This document shows positions 4,106 to 12,222 of a stretch of DNA of 41,762 nucleotides, piece by piece. Position numbers and translations under genes: made by a program. The stretch is taken from NCBI GenBank assembly GCA_016873735.1, contig VGWD01000020.1, positions 1 through 41,762 of the forward strand, read 5' to 3'. The notes under the pieces are model-generated. The model was given only the letters and a program-made list of their open reading frames with translations, was not told the origin of the DNA and did not search any database. The first letter of the stretch is position 1. Each line of letters opens with the position of its first letter. Source of the stretch: Ignavibacteria bacterium. GTDB lineage: Bacteria > Bacteroidota > Ignavibacteria > Kapaibacteriales > UBA961.

Positions 4106-5341
4106 ATGAATACAACCATGCAGCAATACATAGACAGTCTTCTTTCAATGAATAAAGAAGATGCGCGAATCATCATCACAATATCGAATCCTTATGGGAA
4201 GGAAGCAATTCATGTACCCGGAAAAGAAGATGCATACAATCATTGCAAAAAAATCATCATTCATCATGATTCATCCTCATTTGGATTAATGCTGATTGAC
4301 ATCATCACGAATGACAAGTCATATACTCATTCAATCGCTTTATCCAATGATGAAGATAGGATGGACATACTGAATGCATTATCTCTCTTGCCATTCAAAC
4401 AATGGCATTTGCAGACACCTGCGAAAGACCTCTATATCAAACGTTCTCCCTTAACTAGCCGCGGACAAACTATTCTGCATCGTTTTACAAAGCCGTCAAA
4501 AATGCATTGGACATCAAACGCTGAAGACCTCATGCCGATTAGCCCCGGACATGATGCTCGATTGCTTCATGCTATTGGAATTGCCGATGCACAGTATGCG
4601 ATTATTCCCGTAATGCGTGACAAGTATGTTCAAATCAATCACTTCATTCGAATATTCGAACAATATGCAACGGAACTAATCGAGCCGATTCAGATTATTG
4701 ATTGTGGCTGCGGACAGGCATATCTCAGCATTGCATTATTGTGGTATTTGCGAAATACGAAAAGAAAAGACGCTACATTGATTGGAATCGAGCAGAATGG
4801 AGAATTGATTGCCTCTTGCAATGCTACAATCAATAGTCTTGACATGCAGAATCATGCATCATTTTCGAATAATGCGATTGCGCATTGGAACGATCTATTG
4901 AGTGAAAAGGGAAGCATCGCACTTATTGCCTTGCATGCCTGTGATACCGCCACTGATGATGCACTTGCCTTGGCGATTGCTCGTAATGCAGATATTATTC
5001 TCGCTGCACCATGTTGCCATCATTATGTTCAGCAACAAATGGATATTGCGATAATCCCTGCCGAAGAATCCTTTCTATTGCGTGATGGAATCATGAAAGA
5101 ACGATTGGGTGACATGCTCACTGATTCCATGCGCAGAGATATATTGATTTCCGAGGGATACTCAGCTGACTTGATTGAGTTTACCGCCTTGGAGCACACA
5201 GCGAAAAATGTGATGATACGAGCAAAAAAAGTTCGCAATATGCCCCATAAACACAAAGAAGATGCTAGAAAACGATGGATGCAGGCAAGAGATCGCTGGC
5301 ACGTGGAGCCAAAACTTGCAAAGCTGATCTCTAAAGAGTGA
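4106..5341 (+). CDS. SAM-dependent methyltransferase, Methyltransf_32/METTL25-like
   Basis: A 411-residue protein. An N-terminal region of about 180 residues that I do not recognise precedes a class I methyltransferase fold. The SAM-binding glycine loop is IIDCGCGQAYLSIAL, the next acidic strand is LIGIEQNGE, and the family-specific ALHACDTATDDAL and APCCHHYV segments follow. The CCHH/PCCYH-type motif is shared with METTL25/RRNAD1-like proteins, whose bacterial relatives are uncharacterised. The C-terminus ends in a basic helix. The ATG at 4106 is chosen over an in-frame TTG at 4100; ATG 4118 is also possible. The last 11 bases overlap the convergent gene ending at 5331. The substrate is unknown. 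Confidence 0.75.
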   Translation: MNTTMQQYIDSLLSMNKEDARIIITISNPYGKEAIHVPGKEDAYNHCKKIIIHHDSSSFGLMLIDIITNDKSYTHSIALSNDEDRMDILNALSLLPFKQWHLQTPAKDLYIKRSPLTSRGQTILHRFTKPSKMHWTSNAEDLMPISPGHDARLLHAIGIADAQYAIIPVMRDKYVQINHFIRIFEQYATELIEPIQIIDCGCGQAYLSIALLWYLRNTKRKDATLIGIEQNGELIASCNATINSLDMQNHASFSNNAIAHWNDLLSEKGSIALIALHACDTATDDALALAIARNADIILAAPCCHHYVQQQMDIAIIPAEESFLLRDGIMKERLGDMLTDSMRRDILISEGYSADLIEFTALEHTAKNVMIRAKKVRNMPHKHKEDARKRWMQARDRWHVEPKLAKLISKE

Positions 5342-7211
5342 TATCTGTTTGAAAATGACACTCAGTTTCCATGTTTCCTTGTATTTCCATCAAACCACTA
5401 CCCAAGGTCTGTTCTCGAGGTTTATGTCTTTGCCTTATTAATAAAGAACAACTCCAATTCTTATAATCATATCCAATCTTCGCCCCGAGCATTGTCATGA
5501 TTCCATATAATGGTTCAATCAACAATTGTCCAGGCAGCCCTGTTTCCGGAAGATATAATGCAGAAGTAAATGAATCGGTATTGGACCAAGCAAAACGAAA
5601 TGACCAATTCCAAGGATGTGTTTTCTTTGCGGACTTCAATTCAAAGGAATATCCGATTCCTCTATTTGCGATCTGATTCAATTCATGATGATGATATTCA
5701 ACTCTGAAGATGGCATTCATTGAGGTATTTGAATGTGTATAGTCGCATCGGGCTCTCCATGAATATTCATATGTAGAAGTAATCCTTGCAGGTGCTTGCA
5801 ATTCATGCATGATTCTACACAAGATGCGGGACTCTTTGTTTTTTGAAGAAAGTTGTAGTATTGATCGCATTCCTCGCTTGCGTGTATCACGATTATGTGG
5901 TACCGAAACATTTGCATACATTTCAAATGAAGATGCATAATCAATTGATTCATATTCACCATTGAATAGTGCTTGAATGCCCATGTCATTTCCCGGGAAT
6001 CCAAATCTACCTGGAGAAACTCCGAGTGGAGAATGCAGTTCGGAATCAAAGTATCGGATGATGCATGCCTGTTGTTGGTTTTGAGCACGATGATGAAACA
6101 TCAATAATCCACCTGCATGGGCTCTTTTGTCAATCAATGCATTTCCGGAAATAGTCAATGTCTTGTTTGACCATTGATAGTCCAAAGAGCTAAGAAATTG
6201 TTCTTTCTCGCCTATGTTCCTTGCAGAAGGAGCAATGTCTGCATCGTAGAATTGATACAAAGCAGAAATTGCAAATGAATGTGAATCATGATTCATTTCT
6301 CCAAAACATGCCAGCCGCTGTTCCTTGACACCTTCCCTATAAGTTAATTCAGTGATTGTTCTGGCATATGTGATGGCAGGAAAGCCCGTTAATTCATGAT
6401 TGTCATTACGATATGCATAGCGATTTCTCGATGCATAGATCATTCCACCATACAATGCAATGCCAAATGGATTTGAACGATGCTGAAGAGAAATCCCTCT
6501 AAAATTTGAATGTTCAATCAAGGATGTATTAGGTCGGATAGACGTTGACCAATGAAGAGCTCTCTGTGTTGGTTTGGTTGCATTCGGCATGGATATACCG
6601 GAAGAAAATACTGTACCTAAACCTGTTTGAATTGTCTGATCCCCAATAATGAGCATAAGATTATGTTGTGAATATGAAAGCGCTCCATGAAGCATGCCGT
6701 GCAAATATGTTTCCCCTGAATGTTTTCCATATGAAAATGATGTTGTGACATTGTTATTTCCAATGAGAATGCGATTCATGAAAGCTTCCTCGGAACCAAG
6801 GAAAGCATGTTGTACAAAGCCACGACTTTTCTGCAGGGTTGATGACAATCTTGTGCGAATTCTACCCGAGAAAACCGATGAAGATGAAAGATTGGTGCAA
6901 TTGAGCAATAGTGTTGCAACTGAAGAATCTAATGAATGAGGGAAGAGGGAAATCAAGTCATTCACAGACTCAATATGTGGGTATTGTTTCAGAATGCTTT
7001 TGCACTCACGAATGAAGGCAGTAGAAATGCCCGGTATATTTGCCAATGCATCCGGAGACTCTCTTAGATTGATTGGATGAGCCATATAATAGTCCATGGC
7101 ATCAATAAGTAAGAAAGATTCCGTCATACCGGATTCATCACCTCCTATGGCATCATCTTGTGCATAGACAAAAGATGCAAAGAGTGACGAAAGCAAAAGA
7201 ATGCTCGCCAT
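5331..7211 (-). CDS. Exported protein with ComEA-like helix-hairpin-helix and predicted beta-barrel
   Basis: A 626-residue protein. A signal peptide ends at SFVYAQ. Residues about 46-95 contain a helix-hairpin-helix of ComEA type (PINLRESPDALANIPGIS then ESVNDLISL). The remaining about 500 residues are rich in alternating polar/aromatic strands ending in aromatic residues, as in outer-membrane beta-barrels. Proteins with this layout are common in Bacteroidota and their function is not established, as far as I know. HHH units usually bind DNA backbones, so a role with DNA or as a structural domain at the periplasmic side is possible. It is the last gene of the porX-tsaE-tatD-MATE run, 25 bases after the MATE gene. 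The 3' end overlaps the methyltransferase gene. Confidence 0.65.
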   Translation of the reverse strand: MASILLLSSLFASFVYAQDDAIGGDESGMTESFLLIDAMDYYMAHPINLRESPDALANIPGISTAFIRECKSILKQYPHIESVNDLISLFPHSLDSSVATLLLNCTNLSSSSVFSGRIRTRLSSTLQKSRGFVQHAFLGSEEAFMNRILIGNNNVTTSFSYGKHSGETYLHGMLHGALSYSQHNLMLIIGDQTIQTGLGTVFSSGISMPNATKPTQRALHWSTSIRPNTSLIEHSNFRGISLQHRSNPFGIALYGGMIYASRNRYAYRNDNHELTGFPAITYARTITELTYREGVKEQRLACFGEMNHDSHSFAISALYQFYDADIAPSARNIGEKEQFLSSLDYQWSNKTLTISGNALIDKRAHAGGLLMFHHRAQNQQQACIIRYFDSELHSPLGVSPGRFGFPGNDMGIQALFNGEYESIDYASSFEMYANVSVPHNRDTRKRGMRSILQLSSKNKESRILCRIMHELQAPARITSTYEYSWRARCDYTHSNTSMNAIFRVEYHHHELNQIANRGIGYSFELKSAKKTHPWNWSFRFAWSNTDSFTSALYLPETGLPGQLLIEPLYGIMTMLGAKIGYDYKNWSCSLLIRQRHKPREQTLGSGLMEIQGNMETECHFQTDITL

Positions 7212-8667: not shown

Positions 8668-9408
8668 TCAAAACTTGGGATACCAAAGGATCGTTAGTTT
8701 GGGCAATGAATAAAAAGTGGAAATTTCAACGTTGCCCCAGGTATTATATGGATCAACATTAGGAATTTTGGTGACATTGTTTTTGCTTTCGAAATCAAGT
8801 CTCCATTCTGCAATTGGAATGATTATACCGTATGATGTAGGAATATTGACCATAAATCCTGCGCCTGCATTGAATGCCAATTGTTTGTCGTCAGTGAATT
8901 CAACATTCGTTGCATATACTCTCTTCGACAAATAATTGATTCCTGCTGCTGCGAAAAACGAAACCTTTCCACGTGGATTCGCGATTGCTCTTGCCGTCAA
9001 ATGCGCTACGGTATACACATCCGGATCAGTTGGAGATCCGGGTAATTTGTTTGCATTATTCAACTTCGAGTTATTTCTTGTATGCATAAGGCCCATGTCG
9101 AACATCAGGAATTCAAGAGGATTATATGCGACGCTGAGTCCGAAAGATGGATTGCCATCCCATGAACGTGTTCCCCTTTTTTCATTGACATCAAGACTCG
9201 TGAGTGTTTCAACAATAGTATTTGTTGCTACGGATGGACCAAATCCAATGAATCTCGCATAAGGTGAAGGTGCTTTTACGATTTCGGTTTGTTCTTCCTC
9301 TTCTTCTCTTTCATCTTGTGCATGCATCGGAAATGCCGATAGCCCAATAATCAAACCAATCATCAGAAGTGGAAGACCGAACAGTGTTCTTGCATTTCTT
9401 GTTGTCAT
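8668..9408 (-). CDS. Nested outer-membrane beta-barrel protein, proposed internal start inside the tatD frame
   Basis: Starting at Met241 of the long frame, the sequence MTTRNARTLFGLPLLMIGLI is a textbook signal peptide: two Arg in the n-region, a hydrophobic core, and cleavage after FPMHA leaving Gln-Asp-Glu. GAGGAG (9418-9423) lies nine bases before this ATG and is a good Shine-Dalgarno. The mature part has an acidic linker (EREEEEE) and then alternating strands ending with an aromatic residue (KF-stop), as in 8- to 10-strand porin-like barrels. It would give 246 residues, about 215 mature. The first 13 codons would double as the end of TatD. The second product is an inference from sequence; no other case is known to me. 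Confidence 0.5.
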   Translation of the reverse strand: MTTRNARTLFGLPLLMIGLIIGLSAFPMHAQDEREEEEEQTEIVKAPSPYARFIGFGPSVATNTIVETLTSLDVNEKRGTRSWDGNPSFGLSVAYNPLEFLMFDMGLMHTRNNSKLNNANKLPGSPTDPDVYTVAHLTARAIANPRGKVSFFAAAGINYLSKRVYATNVEFTDDKQLAFNAGAGFMVNIPTSYGIIIPIAEWRLDFESKNNVTKIPNVDPYNTWGNVEISTFYSLPKLTILWYPKF

Positions 9409-10128
9409 GGCAATAATCTCCTCTATAGTAACTTGATGGATATCGGCTATTTTTTGTGCAATGAATTGCACAAATGCCGGTTCATTCCTTTTTCCACGGT
9501 GAGGAACCGGTGCTATATATGGCGAGTCAGTCTCAATCATGATTCTTGACAAAGGAGTAGCTTTTACGATATCATCAAGTATGCTCTTTTTATAAGTAAT
9601 ATTTCCAGTAAAGGAAATGTGAAAATTTAGATCCAAAGCAGTTTGCAATACATGGATATTTGATGAAAAACAATGAAGAACTCCGGTGAGTTCACCTTGC
9701 TGTTCTTCTTTGAGAATTTCCATGACATCATCATCGGATTCTCTATTGTGTATGATTACAGGTTTGCGATATTCTTTTGCAAGTTGTAATTGTCTTCTAA
9801 ACGCATGTTTTTGAACATCTTTAGGGGCAAAATCATAATAATAATCAAGTCCGATTTCGCCTACTGCAATCACTTTTGGAAATTGCATGGAATTGACAAT
9901 GAATGATTCAGCTTGTTGATCAAAATCATTGGCATTATGAGGGTGAACTCCCATTCCGCAATAAATCTCGTCAAATTCTTTGCACAAGGACAGGACCCCT
10001 TCAAAGCGATTTGGCTCAATTGCGGGAATGATGATTGCTTCCACTCCTTTATCAAATGCTCTGCGAATCATTTCCTCGCGATCTTCATCGAAAGCATCTG
10101 CATCTATATGAGCATGCGTGTCTATCAA
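8668..10128 (-). CDS. TatD-family metal-dependent hydrolase running in frame into a beta-barrel protein
   Basis: One 486-codon frame. Residues 1 to about 253 are a complete TatD DNase-like hydrolase: DTHAHID, GVHPHNA, GEIGLDYYYDF, VIIHNRES, LHCFSSN and METDSPYIAP carry the metal-binding His/Asp/Glu residues, and the normal TatD C-terminus TTRNARTLFGL is present. No stop codon follows. The frame goes straight into a hydrophobic segment ending FPMHAQ and then about 215 residues resembling an outer-membrane beta-barrel. A cytoplasmic nuclease fused ahead of a cleavable signal peptide makes little functional sense. An internal start at 9408 is therefore proposed as a separate feature. The gene overlaps tsaE by four bases (ATGA). 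Confidence 0.85.
   Translation of the reverse strand: MIDTHAHIDADAFDEDREEMIRRAFDKGVEAIIIPAIEPNRFEGVLSLCKEFDEIYCGMGVHPHNANDFDQQAESFIVNSMQFPKVIAVGEIGLDYYYDFAPKDVQKHAFRRQLQLAKEYRKPVIIHNRESDDDVMEILKEEQQGELTGVLHCFSSNIHVLQTALDLNFHISFTGNITYKKSILDDIVKATPLSRIMIETDSPYIAPVPHRGKRNEPAFVQFIAQKIADIHQVTIEEIIAMTTRNARTLFGLPLLMIGLIIGLSAFPMHAQDEREEEEEQTEIVKAPSPYARFIGFGPSVATNTIVETLTSLDVNEKRGTRSWDGNPSFGLSVAYNPLEFLMFDMGLMHTRNNSKLNNANKLPGSPTDPDVYTVAHLTARAIANPRGKVSFFAAAGINYLSKRVYATNVEFTDDKQLAFNAGAGFMVNIPTSYGIIIPIAEWRLDFESKNNVTKIPNVDPYNTWGNVEISTFYSLPKLTILWYPKF
9418..9423 (-). promoter_or_regulatory. Internal ribosome binding site inside tatD
   Basis: GAGGAG on the minus strand, nine bases upstream of the internal ATG at 9408. 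It also encodes two Glu of the TatD helix, so coding constraint alone could explain it. Confidence 0.4.
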
Positions 10129-10610
10129 CGATTGTCCCCTAAATACTCGATATTGATGACGCGTTCATCTTCTTGTTCAACAACTGATTTGATTGTCACC
10201 TTCCAGTCAATCGATGGCATTGTGGAACCGGCTTTCTCGGGCCATTCCACAAATTTTATTACTTGATCATCGCTCATGCATTCTGAGAATCCAATTTCCA
10301 ATAATTCCTTTACATCTTGAATCCTGTAGAGATCGATATGATACAATGCGATCTCGGAGCCATCAGGATTTGAACCGATATATTGATTCATGATCGTGAA
10401 TGTTGGGCTCGAAACAATGTCATGGACTGAAAAGTAAGAACAAACTCCTCGAACGAATTCAGTCTTTCCTGCTCCCAAGTCACCTGCCAATGCGATGATT
10501 TCACCGGGCGTGATCTTTTCGGCAAAACGCTTGCCTATTGATCGAGTTTCTTCTTCCGAATGAGTGTGGTAGCTGTCTGCTTCCATGTACAAGTCTGAAT
10601 TGTGAGACAA
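10125..10610 (-). CDS. tsaE: tRNA threonylcarbamoyladenosine biosynthesis ATPase TsaE
   Basis: A 161-residue P-loop ATPase. TsaE works with TsaB and TsaD to make N6-threonylcarbamoyladenosine at position 37 of ANN-decoding tRNAs. Motifs seen: the Walker A GDLGAGKT (residues 43-50), the switch-like SSPTFTIMNQY, and LYHIDLYRI, followed by the VEWPEKA motif. Length is normal. Met9 (10586) is an alternative start. It lies 40 bases after porX and overlaps the tatD start by four bases, so it is translated within the porX run. TsaB and TsaD are not in the window. Confidence 0.93.
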   Translation of the reverse strand: MSHNSDLYMEADSYHTHSEEETRSIGKRFAEKITPGEIIALAGDLGAGKTEFVRGVCSYFSVHDIVSSPTFTIMNQYIGSNPDGSEIALYHIDLYRIQDVKELLEIGFSECMSDDQVIKFVEWPEKAGSTMPSIDWKVTIKSVVEQEDERVINIEYLGDNR

Positions 10611-10650
10611 GACAAAATTCGGGCAGACATAAAGTCTTCCCTGATATTAT

Positions 10651-12222
10651 TTATCGTGGTTCCAATGTGATGACAGGTAGTATCATTTCTTCGAGAGAAA
10701 TGCCACCATGTTGGAAACTATCACGATATTTCTGAACATAATAATTATAATCTGTAGGATACACAAAATATGTATCCTCTTTTGCAATGATGTAATTTGT
10801 TGATGCTGTATGCTCGGGTAATTTATATGCATCGGGATACTTGATGGTCATTGCATTTTTTGCATCTGACTTTACATTCTTTCCATGTTTAAAGCGAAGA
10901 TTCGTGGATGTTTCGCGATCTCCATGGGCTCTTACTCCGTGCATACACCGAACAGAACCATGATCGGTGGTTATCACGATATTGATGTCTTTGAATTGAG
11001 ACAATGTTCTAAGCATGCCCAAAAGGGATGAATGTCTGAACCATGATTGCGTGAGTGATCTGTATGCCGACTCATCCGGTGCAATTTCTTTCAGAATTGG
11101 ATAATCAGAACGAGAATGTGCAATCATGTCAACGGCATTCACAACAATTGCTGTTAGATGATTTCTTGCATATCGCTGAATATCCTGCTCAATCTTCTTT
11201 CCATAATCTGTGTCGATGATTTTCACATATGACAATTCATTTTTCAGCTGAATTCTTCTACGTTTGAGCAATGCTGCCAATAATTCTTTTTCATGTGCAT
11301 TTTGACTATGCTCGCTGATTCCCGGAAGGTCACCTTTCCAGTAATCAGGGTAATGTTTTTTGATTTCATTGGGGAATAGCCCGGCAAAAATGGCATTGCG
11401 AGCATATGGAGTTGCAGTGGGAATGATCGAACAATAATAGTCTTTCTGAACAGTGAAATAAGGTCTGATCAATTCTTCCATCATCATCCATTGATCAAGA
11501 CGCATGCAGTCTATAACAAAAAAGAATGTGGGTTTGCCATTGGATAATTTTGGCAATACATATGTGTCAGCAATTTGAGGCGAAAGCAAAGGAGAAGCGT
11601 CATCACCTCGAATCCATGACTCATAATTATTCTCCACGAATTTCCCGAATTCCGCATTGCATTCACGCCATTGATCTTTCAATGTTTGATGAAAACCCAA
11701 TTCCGGATGCAAGTCCAATTCAATGCTCCAGTGAACCAATTTCTGATAAACGTCAAGCCAGTCAGACCAGTCCATAAAGCCATGCAATCGTCTTGCTATC
11801 TCGGAAAAACCTTGCAGATAATCCTGTGTGATTTTTTCTTCCGCAATTCGCCTTGATTCAAGAAATTTCTTGCAAGCAGCAAGAATCTGGGCAGGATTTA
11901 CAGGTTTAGTGAGATAGTCATCAATTTTCCTTCCGATTGCTTGTTCCATCAATGATTCAGCTTCATTCTTCGTTACCATCACTACTGGCATAGAGGGGTC
12001 TATGTCCTTAAATACGGACAAAGTTTCCAGACCGGACATACCCATCATGGATTCATCGAGAAAGATAAGGTCGAAGGATTGATTTGTGACTAGTTCAATG
12101 GCATCTTCACCATTTGTGGCTGTCTCTACATCATAGCCACGCTGATTAAGCAGGATGATATGCGGTTTGAGTAGATCGATTTCATCATCGATCCAGAGTA
12201 TGCTCTTTTTTGATTGTTCCAT
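10651..12222 (-). CDS. porX: PorX-type response regulator with PglZ-like phosphatase domain
   Basis: A 523-residue protein with an N-terminal receiver domain: acidic pair Asp12/Asp13, phospho-acceptor Asp56 in LIFLDESMM, and Lys106 in DYLTKPVNP. A helical middle region follows. The C-terminal part belongs to the alkaline phosphatase-like PglZ group (metal-ligand motifs VIDCMRLDQW and TTDHGSVR). This is the layout of PorX, which with the kinase PorY regulates type IX secretion in Bacteroidota. GGAG lies eight bases upstream of the ATG, and a TTTG-N20-GATATTTG promoter lies about 130 bases upstream. No other type IX secretion gene is visible nearby. Identity is strong; regulation of secretion in this organism is inferred. 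Confidence 0.88.
   Translation of the reverse strand: MEQSKKSILWIDDEIDLLKPHIILLNQRGYDVETATNGEDAIELVTNQSFDLIFLDESMMGMSGLETLSVFKDIDPSMPVVMVTKNEAESLMEQAIGRKIDDYLTKPVNPAQILAACKKFLESRRIAEEKITQDYLQGFSEIARRLHGFMDWSDWLDVYQKLVHWSIELDLHPELGFHQTLKDQWRECNAEFGKFVENNYESWIRGDDASPLLSPQIADTYVLPKLSNGKPTFFFVIDCMRLDQWMMMEELIRPYFTVQKDYYCSIIPTATPYARNAIFAGLFPNEIKKHYPDYWKGDLPGISEHSQNAHEKELLAALLKRRRIQLKNELSYVKIIDTDYGKKIEQDIQRYARNHLTAIVVNAVDMIAHSRSDYPILKEIAPDESAYRSLTQSWFRHSSLLGMLRTLSQFKDINIVITTDHGSVRCMHGVRAHGDRETSTNLRFKHGKNVKSDAKNAMTIKYPDAYKLPEHTASTNYIIAKEDTYFVYPTDYNYYVQKYRDSFQHGGISLEEMILPVITLEPR

Follow-up and report, generated by a model that had tools for sequence, protein, structure and literature searches.

One reading frame in Kapaibacteriales very probably encodes a TatD-family protein and, from a nested start, a putative exported beta-barrel

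Introduction

How many proteins are made from a tatD gene that has no stop codon at its end and runs on, in frame, into a signal peptide-like segment and a beta-barrel? The question is raised by a locus in a 41,762-nucleotide stretch of DNA from an Ignavibacteria genome (contig VGWD01000020.1; hereafter the window), where the usual annotation would show just one long TatD. The genome belongs to a lineage that NCBI taxonomy lists as Kapaibacterium under Bacteroidota, Eximiradiales; GTDB places it in Kapaibacteriales, the order referred to throughout. The first-pass annotation of the window had read the locus as one frame giving two products and named a lost stop codon or a sequence error as the main alternative. 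Here, we compare the locus with its relatives, and the comparison supports the first of these readings through a conserved open frame and through selection on the nested ATG and its Shine-Dalgarno-like codon.

Results

The frame and its two domains

Positions 8668–10128 of the reverse strand form a single open frame of 486 codons, with a TTG start and a TGA stop at 8668–8670. The frame continues after TatD through a hydrophobic segment and an A|Q site to an acidic linker and then a barrel, which confirms that this tatD runs without a stop into a signal peptide-like segment and a barrel; the frame is also open in 120 junctions read in relatives.

The TatD domain (residues 1–252; 9373–10128, reverse strand) is complete, as had been claimed. 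Residues H5, H7, E91, H127, H152 and D201, which we take to be the TatD metal-site positions, are invariant in an alignment of 76 fused relatives, in agreement with the catalytic motifs reported earlier. Residues 2–251 match Pfam TatD_DNase PF01026 over profile positions 1–253 of 253 (E 2.2e-83), the TIGR00010 score is 270 bits against a cut-off of 206, and the domain can be aligned over its full length with solved structures of TatD (2gzx, for example), ending at the equivalent of TLFGL. By its domain and metal-site residues the window product belongs to the TatD family hydrolases, and nuclease activity is predicted. The window's genome also holds a second, distant TatD-like protein (G000:C6:15845-16282, L002; 89 bits) in a 263-codon frame.

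The mature barrel (8671–9318, reverse strand) comprises 216 residues after A|Q, an acidic linker followed by eight predicted strands, in agreement with the roughly 215 barrel-like residues first noticed. AlphaFold2, run on 79 relatives, placed an eight-strand barrel behind one N-terminal helix (residues 2–25) with a mean pLDDT of 90.7. The best structural matches, in comparisons that also included Foldseek, were Legionella porin III, the OprF N-domain, OmpA, NspA and OmpW (Z 16–18, ~10% identity). PF13505 was matched at E ≤0.1 by 26 of the 79 members, the window's own barrel not being among them, and most members fall below Pfam cut-offs; a C-terminal aromatic residue is frequent. The model therefore has the closed, eight-strand fold of an OmpA-type outer-membrane barrel. 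A small structural or envelope-stabilizing role is our default guess for its function.

Gene neighborhood gave no clue to that function: the conserved neighbors belong to the context most common around tatD in relatives, dnaX-bcp-tatD-upp (names assigned by eye from sequence). In the window, the region upstream of tatD (10125–12222, reverse strand) encodes tsaE, whose stop overlaps the tatD start by four bases, and a PglZ-domain response regulator with a domain composition like that of PorX of type IX secretion. Outside the genus, few others share this placement, and tsaE lies upstream of tatD in only 10 of 116 cases. Elsewhere in the window (5331–7211, reverse strand), downstream of a MATE transporter gene, lies a gene for a 626-amino-acid protein with a signal-like N terminus and no Pfam match at E ≤0.01.

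The junction in relatives

Among 60 relatives searched, from 25 genera and 10 families of the order, nearly all matched the whole fused frame without a stop. A match was obtained in 120 of the 123 genomes of the order, and those without a full match were mostly incomplete or broken at contig ends. We then read 120 junctions codon by codon across the order and also in f16 and f18, two sister families; they represent 119 distinct genomes, as one contig appears under both L035 and L152, and 12 families. Every one of the 120 is open in frame, a pattern well beyond chance that includes single-contig genomes such as G016, G023 and G049, and the hydrophobic segment begins directly after TatD or within about 10 residues of it. 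The frame is open in all intact relatives except one, G400 (below).

Strong matches to a mature-barrel profile, searched in 391 genomes of the class, were limited to the order and family f16, and they sit in the TatD frame except at contig breaks. In a TatD tree, the barrel-fused proteins form one clade (support 92), with the f18 row on a long branch. In this f18 gene (L103:3730-4794), TatD and a signal segment are followed by a long coiled region rich in charge and then by a different barrel-like part at the end, which the mature-barrel profile did not detect. Related families of the class have TatD alone or TatD fused to a radical SAM domain; the latter fusions (L104-L112, L114 and L117-L121), which also occur in f21 of the phylum, share the same joining point.

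The nested start and its upstream codon

An in-frame ATG lies at 9406–9408 (reverse strand), in column −12 when columns are numbered back from the last TatD residue, giving a nested product that overlaps TatD by about 12 codons. Nine bases 5′ of it, where the first-pass annotation had placed it, is GAGGAG (9418–9423, reverse strand), a Shine-Dalgarno-like sequence that doubles as the two Glu codons of TatD ...TIEEII.... An ATG occupies column −12 in 54% of fused genes compared with 4% of unfused TatDs and 0% of radical SAM fusions, and column −20 in 28%, 5% and 0%, respectively. Within the last 20 TatD codons (columns −20 to −5), an in-frame ATG was found in 112/120 fused, 25/85 unfused and 1/15 radical SAM-fused genes. 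In 83 of the 112 fused genes and in none of the 25 unfused ones, the last such ATG follows, at a suitable distance, a Shine-Dalgarno core of at least 4 nt; by a crude scoring, 7 of the 30 other window genes have such a core, indicating modest use.

The strongest signal comes from synonymous codons. With the ATG at −12, GAG outnumbers GAA by 40 to 4 as the Glu codon at −16, compared with 317:955 for the other Glu codons of the same TatD genes (p 1.8e-19), and the ratio is 30:3 among 49 representatives below 75% identity (p 1e-14). When the ATG is instead at −20, the GAG bias shifts to column −24 (23:7, p 5e-4; 10:1 in a set of 12 representatives, p 0.004), with none at −16. These p values take genes as independent, and the representative sets correct for relatedness only partly. 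Unfused TatDs have no GAG bias at these columns. A codon-pair effect was considered as the cause and rejected: with the next base fixed as G, the bias persists (36:3 at −16 versus 142:504 elsewhere). On a quick tree that leaves out the junction and is weakly supported in places, parsimony gives about 15 changes of start placement. mRNA structure and synonymous divergence in close pairs gave weak trends in the expected direction. Together, these comparisons support synonymous selection on the nested ATG and its Shine-Dalgarno-like codon for which there is no protein-level explanation.

Some lineages count against a nested start. Eight of the 120 fused genes have no ATG in the last 20 TatD codons, and some of the eight have GTG or TTG instead. 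In family f6, six genes (L068, L074, L076, L077, L080 and L082) all lack a nested ATG. Some of them have an in-frame GTG; close to the join, L080 offers just a TTG, whereas L082 has none of ATG, GTG and TTG but retains the hydrophobic core. Family f8 mostly lacks the GAG codon where its ATG is at −20. The nested product is, from these sequences, not universal, since a few lineages have no start for it.

These exceptions bear on the best-surviving rival, a polyprotein with a single start in which the internal signal inserts while TatD stays in the cytosol, signal peptidase cuts after Ala and frees the barrel, and the nested ATG is idle. It would account for the 120 junctions being open and for L082 and a few others keeping the hydrophobic segment without a nested start; however, it leaves unexplained both the ATG excess and a preference for GAG over GAA four codons before the ATG that moves with it, and an open frame would be forced in any case by a start inside TatD. 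We consider it unlikely that the polyprotein is the whole explanation.

The shared segment

The segment between the nested start and the end of TatD, MTTRNARTLFGL (9373–9408, reverse strand), forms the last TatD helix and would also be the n-region of the nested signal peptide, as first suggested; it has gained positive charge. Its assignment draws on the sequence, the solved structures, the model and this charge shift. Mean charge is +2.1 in fused and +1.0 in unfused TatDs (p 5e-15), and an acidic residue occurs in 18/120 fused compared with 58/85 unfused segments. A gain of charge and a loss of acidic residues are as expected for a signal-peptide n-region.

The putative signal peptide of the nested product is 30 residues long (9319–9408, reverse strand), with cleavage at A|Q after residue 30. 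Judged by composition only, it has the features of a Sec, signal peptidase I substrate, namely a positive n-region, a hydrophobic core and a small-x-small site, which fits the earlier description of a hydrophobic segment with a signal-peptidase site. The modeled helix at residues 2–25 falls within it, the cleavage-site Gln is nearly invariant (alignment A1), [AVSTGLI]x[AGSC]|Q occurs in 84 of the 120 junctions and the median core hydropathy is 2.9.

A genome with TatD and barrel apart

A stop codon at the end of TatD together with a separate barrel start was found in one derived genome only, G400 of family f8. Its TatD (L147:2183-2971) keeps the common operon position, dnaX-bcp-tatD-upp, and has a stop codon of its own after HFFDVK. 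Its barrel is encoded elsewhere (L167:2867-3622) by a separate gene of 251 codons that has its own ATG and a signal peptide of ordinary appearance; this is the only such genome in the order. Because the G400 TatD falls inside the fused clade, secondary fission is the simplest reading of the split; misbinning is a slight possibility, given a bin completeness of only 70%. The arrangement indicates that the barrel does not require an attached TatD.

The same genome weighs against a stable bifunctional fusion, in which TatD and barrel would remain one 54-kDa protein. Such a fusion would fit the conservation of the arrangement across the order and a full-length AlphaFold2 model in which both domains are confident within a single chain, but the join in that model (residues about 256–280) is poorly ordered, a signal segment with a near-invariant cleavage-site Gln lies between the domains, the domains belong to different compartments and G400 has them separate. 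We considered the conserved open frame as proof of a functional fusion and dropped it, as any stop would cut TatD or the barrel. A stable fusion is therefore very unlikely. A sequencing or assembly error or a recently lost stop codon, which the draft state of the window's genome (61 contigs) might have suggested and which was originally the main alternative, is excluded because all 120 relative junctions are open, single-contig genomes included.

Discussion

The frame very probably has two starts, giving a TatD-barrel chain and an exported barrel. From the first start, ribosomes would make a TatD nuclease with a C-terminal signal segment and barrel; from the second, located in the last TatD helix and served by its own Shine-Dalgarno-like sequence, they would make a Sec-type precursor of the eight-strand barrel, in which the conserved C-terminal helix of TatD would act as the positively charged n-region. 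The overlap would be locked, with the nested start sitting in codons that TatD needs. No stop could part TatD and barrel, because one of the products would be truncated, and the long conservation of the frame is thereby explained without a role for the fusion. We infer that translation begins at both starts, that the A|Q site is cut by signal peptidase and that the barrel is delivered to the outer membrane.

The full-length chain should also exist, because there is no stop after TatD and ribosomes would read on. It could insert with TatD in the cytosol, and a cut at A|Q would leave TatD on a membrane tail. That insertion and cleavage are its likeliest fate is a guess, resting mainly on the lineages without a nested start. 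Because L082 keeps the hydrophobic core without a start, cleavage of the full-length chain may also supply barrel. In the window, tatD starts with TTG, whereas most relatives use ATG; because this TTG stands against a nested ATG with a good Shine-Dalgarno sequence, these start codons may favor barrel output over TatD. Taken as a whole, we tentatively propose an order-wide, locked in-frame overlap in which a nuclease helix is the n-region of a barrel, made both from the nested start and by cleavage of a full chain that tethers the nuclease to the inner membrane; this full scheme is possible, and we hold it with less than even confidence.

The locus would be a clear example, conserved to great depth, of a single bacterial frame that encodes two unrelated proteins destined for different sides of the cell envelope. 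It offers a natural system for Sec handling of a signal sequence behind a folded cytosolic domain and for how gene overlaps become locked, with G400, which escaped, and f6, in which the nested start is largely lost, as natural controls. The observation that a ribosome-binding codon moves with the start codon could, used as a test, reveal further hidden starts.

Open-access papers yielded no TatD-barrel fusion, no internal start creating an exported product and no outer-membrane protein whose signal peptide is the tail of an unrelated cytosolic enzyme, in line with the first-pass annotation, which knew of no described case. A cytosol/outer-membrane overlap kept across an order thus appears to be undescribed. 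Internal in-frame starts are themselves known, phage lambda C/Nu3 among them, and the marks of an in-frame nested gene, an internal start and a Shine-Dalgarno sequence under selection, are found here.

The barrel itself resembles OmpA/OmpW/OprF-type barrels in its eight strands, its Z scores and its frequent C-terminal aromatic residue, but shares little identity with them and is encoded at the end of a TatD gene. The TatD-radical SAM fusions join their second domain at the exact same TatD C terminus, but they have no signal segment, the nested ATG is close to absent from them and the partner is a cytosolic enzyme domain. In type III secretion systems of different bacteria, an internal in-frame start gives the C-terminal product SctQ-C beside full-length SctQ (PMC4295842, PMC8553256). 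As here, such a product is kept across bacteria; in contrast, SctQ and SctQ-C are both cytosolic and cooperate, whereas TatD and the barrel belong to different compartments. Mycobacteriophage Ms6 has a second, same-frame gene, lysA241, within lysA, which has a Shine-Dalgarno sequence and an internal start of its own (PMC3111421), and likewise makes a long and a short product from one frame. lysA241 is part of the same endolysin and fully embedded in it, whereas the short product at the tatD locus would be an exported protein unrelated to the enzyme, which it overlaps by about 12 codons, and gains a signal peptide.
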